This document shows positions 1-2,379 of a stretch of DNA of 10,911 nucleotides, piece after piece. The stretch's first letter is position 1. The number at the start of each line of letters is the position of its first letter. Source of the stretch: Candidatus Nealsoniibacteriota bacterium (lineage in GTDB: Bacteria > Patescibacteriota > Minisyncoccia > Minisyncoccales > GWA2-38-27); NCBI GenBank assembly GCA_003556925.1, contig PWQC01000029.1:1-10911 (forward strand), written 5' to 3'. Position numbers and translations under genes: made by a program. Under the pieces are notes generated by a model, which was not told the origin of the DNA, did no database searches, and was given only the letters and a program-made list of their open reading frames with translations.

Positions 1-648
1 AACCACTTCTCCCTTATATCTACCCAAAAAAAGAGCTATCTGATTGTCTTCAGAAAATAATTTAAACTGATCTAAAAGATACTGATAAGAAAAACGAACA
101 AAATCATGCCTTTGAGCTGTTTTTGAATATAATTCGCTAAAAAGCTTTAAATCATCGCTTTTTTTTATCTCTATCTCTGGATCTTTTATTCCTTTCCTAA
201 TTAAATATCTCGTAGTTTTTCTCATAGGAGTTAAAAGATCTTGAGAAGTAAGGTCCAATTCCCACGTTTGCTCTGGATGAATGTGAATAGGAGCTTTCTT
301 TAAGCTATTATCCTGAAAGGAATTTTTCTCCCAGATAAAGGAAATTCGAGCAAAAGAGACTTTGTCTATTTTTTTAAAATATTGAACTAAGGCTTGAAAC
401 ACTTCTTTTCTATTCTTTAAAACAACCGGCCCATGAGGAATGAAAAAAAAGCTACCTCTTTTAGCTTTTATCTTTATTATCAAAGCAACCCCCTTTAAAT
501 TAGGATCAAAGAAACCAACGCGCCATATCTGATGTCCTATTTTTTTTTGAAATTCCCCCCAGTTCCAAGAATGCAAAAAGGTTTTTTCTTGACAAGAAAA
601 TAGAAATTCCTCCCATTCTTTTTTATCTTTTAACTCTTTAACTTCCAT
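1..648 (-). CDS. FemAB-family peptidoglycan interpeptide-bridge aminoacyltransferase, N-terminal 216 residues (3' end outside window)
   Basis: Reading from ATG at 648-646 gives 216 uninterrupted codons that run off the window edge, so the C-terminal part is missing; complete family members are usually about 330-420 residues. FemA/FemB/FemX proteins are cytoplasmic, GNAT-fold transferases that move an amino acid from aminoacyl-tRNA onto the stem peptide of lipid-linked peptidoglycan precursors. Visible family marks are FLHSWNWGEFQ at 24-34, IPHGPVV at 70-76, the segment at 128-153 (TWELDL followed by MRKTTRYLIRKG) and the SELYSKTAQRHDF stretch at 171-183. Which amino acid and which acceptor are used cannot be told from this part. 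It lies downstream of hsp20 beyond a strong terminator and seems to have its own promoter. The ATG is chosen because the family N-terminus begins there and a -10-like box abuts it; there is no Shine-Dalgarno at normal spacing. Family assignment is firm, exact role inferred. Confidence 0.88.
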   Translation of the reverse strand, partial: MEVKELKDKKEWEEFLFSCQEKTFLHSWNWGEFQKKIGHQIWRVGFFDPNLKGVALIIKIKAKRGSFFFIPHGPVVLKNRKEVFQALVQYFKKIDKVSFARISFIWEKNSFQDNSLKKAPIHIHPEQTWELDLTSQDLLTPMRKTTRYLIRKGIKDPEIEIKKSDDLKLFSELYSKTAQRHDFVRFSYQYLLDQFKLFSEDNQIALFLGRYKGEVV

Positions 649-654
649 AAAATA

Positions 655-683
655 ATCTTATCATCCTTTTCTTTTATAGGCAA
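655..683 (-). promoter_or_regulatory. Putative extended -10 promoter of the FemAB-family gene, giving a leaderless mRNA
   Basis: On the minus strand a -35-like TTGCCT (683-678; 4 of 6 matches) is followed after 17 nt by TAAGAT (660-655; 4 of 6), which is preceded by TGA, i.e. the TGn of an extended -10. The -10 box ends six bases before the ATG at 648-646, so transcription would start at or next to the start codon. The -35 overlaps the distal arm of the hsp20 terminator. The call rests on sequence match only, and weak boxes are common in AT-rich DNA. Confidence 0.4.
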
Positions 684-719
684 GAATAAAAAAAGCGCCT
701 TAGGCGCTTTTTTTATTCT
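683..719 (-). terminator. Intrinsic terminator of hsp20 (perfect 18-bp inverted repeat)
   Basis: Bases 683-700 and 702-719 are perfect inverted complements around a single central base. The GC core (GCGCC/GGCGC) is flanked by seven A and seven T, so it looks like a factor-independent terminator in either direction. It overlaps the hsp20 stop codon TAA (715-713) and the last two sense codons. Because FemAB lies downstream on the same strand, the natural reading is that it ends the hsp20 transcript and insulates FemAB. Confidence 0.9.
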
Positions 720-1126
720 GTTTCTATCTTTATTTTTTTCTTCTCCTTCTTTGTCTTCTTAAGATTAATATTTAATACTCCATCTTTCATTTTAGCTTCT
801 ACTTTGTCTGGATCAACTTCGGCGGGCAAAGGAAAAAACCTGCTAAACTCTCCATATTCTCTTTCATATCTATAAAATTTCTTCTTTTTCTCTTCTTTTT
901 CTTTTTCTTTTTTCCCGCTTATCTTTATGCTGTCTGGATTTACATCTATCTCTATATTTTCTGATTTTATTCCAGGAACATTAGCTGTAACTACTACCTC
1001 TTTCTCACTTTCCGAAATGTCTACCTTAGGAAATTTTGGCTCAAAGTCAAATAGTTCGTCCATTTCAAATAGAGAAGGAATTTCAGAATCTGAAAATAAA
1101 GAAGGAAGGTTTTTTCGAATTTTCAT
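713..1126 (-). CDS. Small heat-shock protein, Hsp20/alpha-crystallin family
   Basis: This 137-residue protein has the size and layout of bacterial small heat-shock proteins, ATP-independent holdases that bind unfolding proteins as oligomers in the cytoplasm. A short N-terminal arm (1-32) is followed by the alpha-crystallin domain from PKVDISE (33-39) to the diagnostic GVLNINL (116-122). A C-terminal IKI (132-134) matches the I-x-I motif that docks on a neighbouring subunit. A lysine/glutamate-rich stretch (72-83) fills the loop before YRYEREYGEF (85-94). The gene is monocistronic: its own consensus promoter lies upstream and a perfect-palindrome terminator overlaps the stop. A CIRCE-like dyad over the promoter suggests HrcA repression and heat induction (inference). 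The start is the only ATG fitting the family N-terminus. There is no Shine-Dalgarno; the roughly 30-nt leader is almost entirely A/T. Confidence 0.95.
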   Translation of the reverse strand: MKIRKNLPSLFSDSEIPSLFEMDELFDFEPKFPKVDISESEKEVVVTANVPGIKSENIEIDVNPDSIKISGKKEKEKEEKKKKFYRYEREYGEFSRFFPLPAEVDPDKVEAKMKDGVLNINLKKTKKEKKKIKIETE

Positions 1127-1164
1127 AATAATTTATTTTATTATTTTTTTTCGACCTTTCTTTC

Positions 1165-1192
1165 ATTATAAAAAAGTTAGCAGTCTTGTCAA
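1165..1192 (-). promoter_or_regulatory. hsp20 promoter, perfect sigma70 hexamers
   Basis: On the minus strand TTGACA (1192-1187) and TATAAT (1170-1165), both full consensus, are separated by 16 nt. The predicted transcript starts near 1158 and has a leader of about 32 nt before the ATG at 1126. The -35 box overlaps the TGA stop (1191-1189) of the upstream aminotransferase. Such a strong core promoter before a stress gene implies that a repressor keeps it down, which fits the dyad laid over the -35. Confidence 0.85.
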
Positions 1193-1203
1193 GAGTCTGC
1201 TAA
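1177..1203 (-). promoter_or_regulatory. CIRCE-like operator (putative HrcA site) over the hsp20 -35; also a terminator-like hairpin
   Basis: The minus strand reads TTAGCAGAC-N9-GACTGCTAA. The CIRCE consensus bound by the heat-shock repressor HrcA is TTAGCACTC-N9-GAGTGCTAA, so 15 of 18 arm positions match with exact spacing, and all six outermost bases of each arm are identical. The N9 contains TTGACA, the -35 box, so a bound repressor would block polymerase. The outer left arm is the Leu-Ala-Asp codons of the upstream gene, followed by its Ser codon and TGA. The dyad is followed by C and six T, so in RNA it could instead, or also, terminate the lysS operon. HrcA control is inferred; hrcA itself is not in the window. 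Confidence 0.65.
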
Positions 1204-2379
1204 TAAAGAGACCACCCTCTCAGCTTTTTTTTCAGAAATATTAATATGAGTGGGTAAATTTATTGTTTTTTGAGCGTATTCTTCGGCTATGGGGCAATCT
1301 CCCTTAATATATCCCATCTTTCTTAAATTGGCGTCATCAGGGGCGATAGGACTAGTGTACCAGTCCCCTATTAAAATGTTCTGACTCCACGCTTTTTTGA
1401 TAATCTCATGGGCCTTAAACTTTACTACCGGGAATCTTAAATAACTCTGTTTTTCGTCAGGTAGGTCAATTGATAGTTTTTCAGCGTAAAAATTAGCTAT
1501 CTTTTTTCTATGAAGATAAAATTTATCAATTTTCTTAAATTGATGACAAGCTAAAGAGGCTAAAGCGTTAGGCATCTTCCTGGGAAAATAATTAGGCTTA
1601 CCTCCTTGTTTCTCTTTGTCGGTTACCGCCTTAGAAAGAAGATGAATTTTTTGAAAAAAAACTAGAAGATATTTACCTGGAAAAGAATAAAAAGGTACAA
1701 CAAAAAAATTAACCAATAAAGGATGTAAAAGTTGCTGGAAGATCCAAAAATAAGAAGGATACTTCTGTTCTTCTATCTTTTCTGCTAACTTTAAGTCTTT
1801 AACTATAATCCCTCCCCCATACACAGATGAGATAACTTTATCCCGAGAAAAGCTTAAAAAGCTTGCATCTCCAAAGGTTCCTATTTTTCTTCCTTTGTAC
1901 TCTGCGCCCAGGGCATGAGCGCAGTCTTCAATCAAAATTAAGTTATTTTCTTTAACTATTTCCATTATCTCTTCCATTCGACAAGGCTTTCCGAAAGTAT
2001 GTTGAATAATTAATACTTTTGTTTTCGGGCTTATCTTTCTTTTAAGGTCCTCCGGGTCGATGTTGAAATCATCTTTGATATCTACGTACTTCGGATTTAA
2101 ATTATTCCACAAGATTGGAGTAACCAAAGCAGAGCAGGTAAAGGCCTGAAGTAAAACTTGATCATTTTTCTCTAGCTTTAATGCTTTTAATAAACAGTAA
2201 AGAGAAGATCTTCCGCTATTGTAGAGAAAGATATTAGAAATATTAAAATATTCTTTTAAAAGGCTTTTTAATTCCTCTTCTTTTTTCCCTCTTTTCCAGT
2301 TAAAACATTGAAAGAGAAGTTTAAAAGCTAAAAAAAAATCATCTCTTTCTGTATTTGGAGAGATTGAGATAGAAATCAT
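1189..2379 (-). CDS. DegT/DnrJ/EryC1/StrS-family PLP-dependent aminotransferase
   Basis: This 396-residue protein is a fold-type I, PLP-dependent enzyme of the family that usually transaminates keto-sugars on nucleotide carriers, for example in surface-glycan amino-sugar synthesis. Visible marks are the cofactor phosphate region NSGRSSL (54-60), EDCAHALGAEYKG (151-163) with Asp152 expected to hold the pyridine nitrogen, and FSRDKVISSVYGGG (177-190) with Lys181 as the expected Schiff-base lysine. A C-terminal helix resembling ISEKKAERVVSLL (381-393) closes the domain. Oddly, residues about 212-250 are strongly hydrophobic and aromatic, suggesting a membrane-facing or substrate loop. The start ATG overlaps the stop of the MurF-like gene (ATGA), so the two are probably translationally coupled. 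No Shine-Dalgarno is seen. Substrate is unknown; the envelope-gene context suggests a cell-surface sugar. The family call is firm, the pathway is not. Confidence 0.88.
   Translation of the reverse strand: MISISISPNTERDDFFLAFKLLFQCFNWKRGKKEEELKSLLKEYFNISNIFLYNSGRSSLYCLLKALKLEKNDQVLLQAFTCSALVTPILWNNLNPKYVDIKDDFNIDPEDLKRKISPKTKVLIIQHTFGKPCRMEEIMEIVKENNLILIEDCAHALGAEYKGRKIGTFGDASFLSFSRDKVISSVYGGGIIVKDLKLAEKIEEQKYPSYFWIFQQLLHPLLVNFFVVPFYSFPGKYLLVFFQKIHLLSKAVTDKEKQGGKPNYFPRKMPNALASLACHQFKKIDKFYLHRKKIANFYAEKLSIDLPDEKQSYLRFPVVKFKAHEIIKKAWSQNILIGDWYTSPIAPDDANLRKMGYIKGDCPIAEEYAQKTINLPTHINISEKKAERVVSLLADS

Follow-up and report, generated by a model that had tools for sequence, protein, structure and literature searches.

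A predicted HrcA operator over the −35 box of an hsp20 promoter in a Candidatus Nealsoniibacteriota genome

Background

CIRCE-controlled small heat-shock genes have already been published. In Lactobacillus acidophilus, hsp16 has a CIRCE upstream and control by HrcA is proposed (PMC3179173). According to PMC545781, groESL is the sole constant HrcA target in delta-proteobacteria, and the CIRCE of the hrcA-grpE-dnaK-dnaJ operon controls chaperone genes and hrcA itself. Functional CIRCE of Mycoplasma gallisepticum are reported to bear at most two mutations, and the HrcA targets named for Mollicutes are dnaK, clpB and lon (PMC5138195). Our literature search, which mostly covered papers outside subscription, returned nothing for HrcA with Candidate Phyla Radiation, HrcA with Parcubacteria or CIRCE with Patescibacteria; the only match for HrcA with Saccharibacteria concerned Enterococcus.

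Here we describe a further, predicted case, in a stretch of 10,911 nucleotides from a Candidatus Nealsoniibacteriota bacterium (the window). It forms contig C15 of an assembly that is 61% complete and comprises 44 contigs and 335,519 bases. As in L. acidophilus, a small heat-shock gene here has a CIRCE-type dyad of its own upstream. The arms of the hsp16 element are perfect consensus, whereas the dyad in the window agrees at 15 of 18 arm positions and holds a −35 box and the stop codon of the upstream gene. It shares with the CIRCE of hrcA-grpE-dnaK-dnaJ operons (in PMC545781 and in related genomes) an N9 dyad at a vegetative-type promoter, and in the relatives that dyad overlaps the −35 box, as it does here. 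The predicted target in the window differs in being a stand-alone hsp20. The lineage also resembles the Mollicutes of PMC5138195 in having HrcA among few regulators in a small genome; hsp20 is not among the Mollicutes targets named there.

Results and discussion

The features of the locus are as follows.

1..648, minus strand: FemAB-family gene, truncated where the contig ends; the congeners both have an ftsQ-like gene, a CIRCE and hrcA after it
683..719, no strand assigned: terminator-like hairpin past hsp20, symmetric, with flanking A and T runs, called on the plus strand
713..1126, minus strand: hsp20, 137 amino acids (PF00011, 86.6 bits)
1125..1144, minus strand: weak A+U-rich hairpin, from a fold, immediately ahead of the hsp20 start codon and extending over its first one to two bases
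1152..1159, minus strand: AAAGGTCG leader motif, 5 nt past the −10 box, enriched order-wide
1165..1170, minus strand: −10 hexamer TATAAT with a 16-bp spacer, from the promoter scan; spacing and −10 box are the same in congener G002
1177..1203, minus strand: CIRCE-type dyad, predicted HrcA operator (15 of 18 against consensus, 17 of 18 against the lineage spelling, matrix score 26.6)
1187..1192, minus strand: −35 hexamer TTGACA within the dyad, from the promoter scan
1189..2379, minus strand: DegT/DnrJ/EryC1-type aminotransferase; the dyad contains its final four codons and TGA

The minus strand of the dyad reads TTAGCAGAC-TCTTGACAA-GACTGCTAA, in full TTAGCAGACTCTTGACAAGACTGCTAA. The arm matches and exact N9 spacing given in the original prediction are present, measured against the consensus TTAGCACTC-N9-GAGTGCTAA; the spelling of the lineage is TTAGCAGTC-N9-GACTGCTAA. 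A relaxed CIRCE pattern allowing up to three mismatches finds one match in the window, with an expected mean of 0.01 and one match-bearing sequence among 200 shuffles. The dyad has no mismatches to a still looser pattern used for a genome scan (up to two mismatches allowed); that pattern has one match in the assembly and so does its reversed control, so the scan alone proves little.

A stronger test is a matrix trained on 32 distinct operators that precede hrcA or groES in related genomes. The score of the dyad is 26.6 (28.6 for the opposite strand), close to the training median of 27.3 (range 18.6 to 31.6), and the second-best site in the window reaches only 6.2. None of 1,999,974 simulated positions attained the score of the dyad, the null maximum being 16.9. 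Most of the matrix loci were retrieved by a CIRCE-like pattern, so the matrix is biased towards that pattern. Twelve of the 71 hrcA loci were retrieved by protein, independently of the pattern, and a site matching at 14/18 or better is present in every one of the 12. In the available loci, recognition via a protein motif gave 33 operators, 19 before hrcA and 14 before groES, and missed other hrcA loci (for example L001, L005, L006, L011 and L012). Two groES starts have no site within 150 nt; their sites are at 174 and 191 nt.

Three departures from consensus, compared with the two or fewer reported for M. gallisepticum CIRCE (PMC5138195), count mildly against an operator, yet operators of the relatives deviate just as much. 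Eleven of the 32 matrix operators have G at position 7 and 14 have C at position 21, so two of the three departures belong to the spelling of the lineage; one of the 32 shares the third, A at position 8. The matrix score and the spelling shared with congeners and other relatives give the predicted HrcA operator good support, and we predict that the dyad is very probably a CIRCE in the lineage's own spelling, through which HrcA would repress hsp20 until heat or unfolded protein intervenes.

The hsp20 promoter, TTGACA-16-TATAAT, has all 12 hexamer positions and its TTGACA sits in the dyad spacer, as originally proposed. Of the 33 recognised operators, all 19 before hrcA contain TTGAC and none of the 14 before groES does, and the predicted operator in the window follows the hrcA plan, with the dyad over the −35 box. 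The relatives' groES elements are the same type of dyad. They differ from the one in the window in lacking TTGAC and, in congeners G001 and G002, in lying downstream of the −10 box; AAAGGTCG is found in six of the 14 as well, within the spacer.

Upstream of groES in G001 and G002 (L091-L094) we noted by eye a second, different inverted repeat between the CIRCE and the start, AAGCAT...ATGCTT and AGCACAAC...GTTGTGT, possibly a conserved RNA hairpin. Many hrcA starts in the relatives are just 17 to 25 nt past the operator that holds the −35 box, so the hrcA RNA would be nearly leaderless.

At normal temperature, we infer, HrcA would bind the dyad, cover the −35 box of hsp20 and exclude RNA polymerase. 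Heat or a load of unfolded protein would release it, inducing hsp20 as a one-gene transcript that would end at the hairpin at 683..719, which in our reading may also serve the minus strand. The hairpin at 1125..1144 (−2.1 kcal/mol, a value that 7 of 200 shuffles equal or better) resembles an inverted repeat seen by eye in G002, and could be a weak RNA thermometer. A search of the window for known RNA families found none at gathering score, and a tRNA and tmRNA search of the window found none.

The dyad was also proposed to form a terminator hairpin with six T. If its symmetry were the terminator of the aminotransferase gene (a hairpin and six U), the likeness to CIRCE would be due to chance. 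A hairpin does exist in the RNA of the dyad, at −8.2 kcal/mol (z −2.4), with 4 of 200 shuffles equal or better, and a T run follows after a single C. The stem contains a 2-nt bulge, and the dyad does not show the hallmark of an intrinsic terminator, a stable G+C-rich stem with a T run immediately after it. A terminator scan of the window leaves the hairpin uncalled; it calls none elsewhere between the aminotransferase gene and hsp20 either, which speaks for the terminator. The run is TTTTTT in the window versus TTTTCC in G002, which keeps the operator half but not the T run, and the likeness to the relatives' operators is far beyond chance. Scan, fold and unconserved T run lead us to reject a terminator as the main explanation, and we consider it very improbable.

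The overlap with the upstream gene agrees with the original codon reading. The aminotransferase frame ends GTC TCT TTA TTA GCA GAC TCT TGA; the dyad starts at the second TTA and the TGA falls in TTGACA. Stop codon, −35 box, operator and hairpin do have bases in common, and a device that couples the two genes by design could use these to link the end of translation and transcription of the aminotransferase with the onset and repression of hsp20. Against such a device, only one of the 33 other operators (G052) contains an upstream stop codon, which looks like occasional compaction. The C-terminus of the aminotransferase is also variable (VVSLLADS in the window versus IVSILRELIK in G001), and in G001 the hsp20 unit is absent between the same neighbors. 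We give the device almost no credence. Of the several roles first assigned to this one element, the overlap of stop codon, −35 box and operator is real and the terminator role is weak; we read the shared bases as a by-product of compaction with no linked mechanism. Because the genome is compact, the predicted operator also supplies the end of the upstream gene, four codons and the stop.

An hrcA gene in the same genome, and the same dyad at other chaperone genes, had been named as checks on the prediction. The assembly, at 61% completeness, gave no match in an HrcA search and no second CIRCE-like site with up to two mismatches. GroES and DnaK are absent from it too. Three weak Hsp70 matches were considered as DnaK and rejected; the best two are MreB. 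With HrcA, GroES and DnaK all absent, the chaperone loci seem to be missing from the assembly.

Both congeners have what the assembly lacks. The gene order in G001 is aminotransferase, FemAB, ftsQ-like gene, CIRCE, hrcA, grpE, dnaK, dnaJ, and in G002 it is hsp20, FemAB, ftsQ-like gene, CIRCE, hrcA, grpE, followed by the contig end. In the direction of hrcA the operator of both reads TTATCAGTC-N9-GACTGCTAA, and the dyad also occurs before groES in both. The contig of the window stops in FemAB, about 1.1 kb short of the position of the congeners' hrcA start, and from their order the missing cluster is expected just past its left end. We infer that this genome has hrcA. Loss of hrcA by the species, with a real operator left as a relic and hsp20 expressed without HrcA, would account for the failed HrcA search. 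The incomplete assembly, the contig end so close to the expected gene and an operator undecayed by its matrix score speak against this loss, which we judge most unlikely.

The hsp20 of G002 is 75% identical to that of the window and lies about 1.9 kb upstream of hrcA. Its upstream region is 69 nt long; the half of the operator on the contig is identical at 16 of 16 bases, the left half being beyond the contig end, and the 16-bp promoter spacing and TATAAT are kept. In G001 the aminotransferase and FemAB genes are 15 nt apart with no hsp20 between them, so the unit of promoter and hsp20 was gained or lost there. The unit is found between aminotransferase and FemAB in the window and before FemAB in G002 (L081, 3196-3518 end), and is absent in G001 (L082, 3199-3215).

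Across 119 related genomes, HrcA was found in 71. The loose CIRCE pattern (up to two mismatches) occurs in 104 of the 119 and its reversed control in 76, so chance explains many of the loose matches. CIRCE-like sites outnumber the control where HrcA is found, with 184 versus 80 in those 71 genomes. The 48 genomes without HrcA show no such excess (55 versus 61).

The congeners' proteins have the Pfam HrcA domain (72.4 and 61.2 bits, cut-off 22.2). The closest PDB relative of a congener HrcA is 1stz (E 9e-14, residues 3-94), which we take to be a T. maritima-type HrcA. All three proteins tested against NCBIfam TIGR00331, those of G001 (L082), G002 (L081) and G004 (L086), miss its equivalog cut-off of 197.2 (172.8, 164.8 and 191.4 bits), and we name them HrcA-family for that reason; the shortfall also counts against the operator reading. 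The model has 338 positions, some 100 more than these proteins have residues. HrcA-family proteins of the order are short in general, with 70 of 71 frames at 214 to 292 amino acids and the PF01628 match beginning at profile position 72 to 128 of 215. The middle part of HrcA is a dimerising domain, and these short proteins may be without it.

To see how common such control is, we examined the upstream regions of 133 of 139 hsp20 entries (left out were G108:C19, G079:C2:10008, G033:C9, G043:C27, G024:C79 and G112:C40); one region is shorter than 27 nt and four are shorter than 120 nt. Scored against the lineage spelling, only the window (17) and G110:C5 (16) exceed the maximum of 14 among 2,660 shuffled regions. 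G022:C7 has a symmetric site at 13/18 and G050 also reaches 13/18, both within chance, as 32 of the 2,660 shuffled regions reach 13 or 14. A CIRCE of its own on hsp20 is rare in this order, with two clear cases in 133. G110 and G022 both belong to one other genus, and their dyads are downstream of the −10 box, unlike that of the window, which points to a separate origin.

Conservation of the arms across hsp20 promoters, suggested as a further check, holds for the operator half in G002 and fails in the closest hsp20 relatives from other genera, which are without CIRCE arms (G040, G004, G079 and G085, at 55%, 51%, 46% and 42% identity). Also found, in 14 genomes, is an hsp20 that follows hrcA, co-oriented and at most 4 kb away; the four such loci that we read (L052, L053, L055 and L057, genes named by eye) have the order hrcA, grpE, hsp20, dnaK. 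HrcA control of hsp20 is on this evidence a recurring theme reached two ways, by an own operator and by a place downstream of hrcA, and the own-operator form of the window is a local one. The implied idea that CIRCE control of an Hsp20 gene is unusual is partly borne out: the hsp16 precedent and these 14 genomes speak against it, the rarity of an own CIRCE in the order for it.

The leader of hsp20 contains AAAGGTCG. In the 119 genomes, TATAAT-N4-16-AAAGGTCG has 227 matches versus 28 for the reversed pattern, about eight times the control, and occurs in 97 genomes versus 24; a few places with two TATAAT before one motif are counted twice. The last 120 nt before the 133 hsp20 genes contain the motif 24 times, 19 of them at 32 to 51 nt, compared with none for the reversed word, none for the reverse complement and an average of 0.17 in shuffles. 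We opened 30 of the places, and 25 have an ATG frame of at least 50 codons within 150 nt, 19 of them at 20 to 45 nt past the motif.

Nine translations were run against Pfam, and the seven from genes led by the motif gave DUF5679, HU, KhpA, DUF4870, a mechanosensitive-channel helix, a pilin-type N-methylation motif and GroES. Past the grpE stop in L052 and L055, inside the hrcA operon, the motif is found with no evident promoter. There is no plain excess of the word in the genome of the window (16 versus 13 for the reversed word); what stands out is only where it lies, downstream of −10 boxes and ahead of start codons. As far as we could find, the signal is unnamed; it usually lies 30 to 50 nt before the start codon. 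We tentatively suggest, from its placement, that it may be a lineage-wide leader signal acting at the RNA level, ribosome-recruiting or stabilising, that would set hsp20 output together with HrcA.

Conclusions

The locus shows ordinary control, tightly packed in a reduced genome, followed by an unexplained leader motif that relatives share. A repressor and its CIRCE, a simple and old heat-shock circuit, are extended here to an order of very small genomes, and a candidate regulon can be named: hrcA-grpE-dnaK-dnaJ and groES, with hsp20 added in a few lineages. The AAAGGTCG motif would matter more should it turn out to serve gene expression in these bacteria generally.
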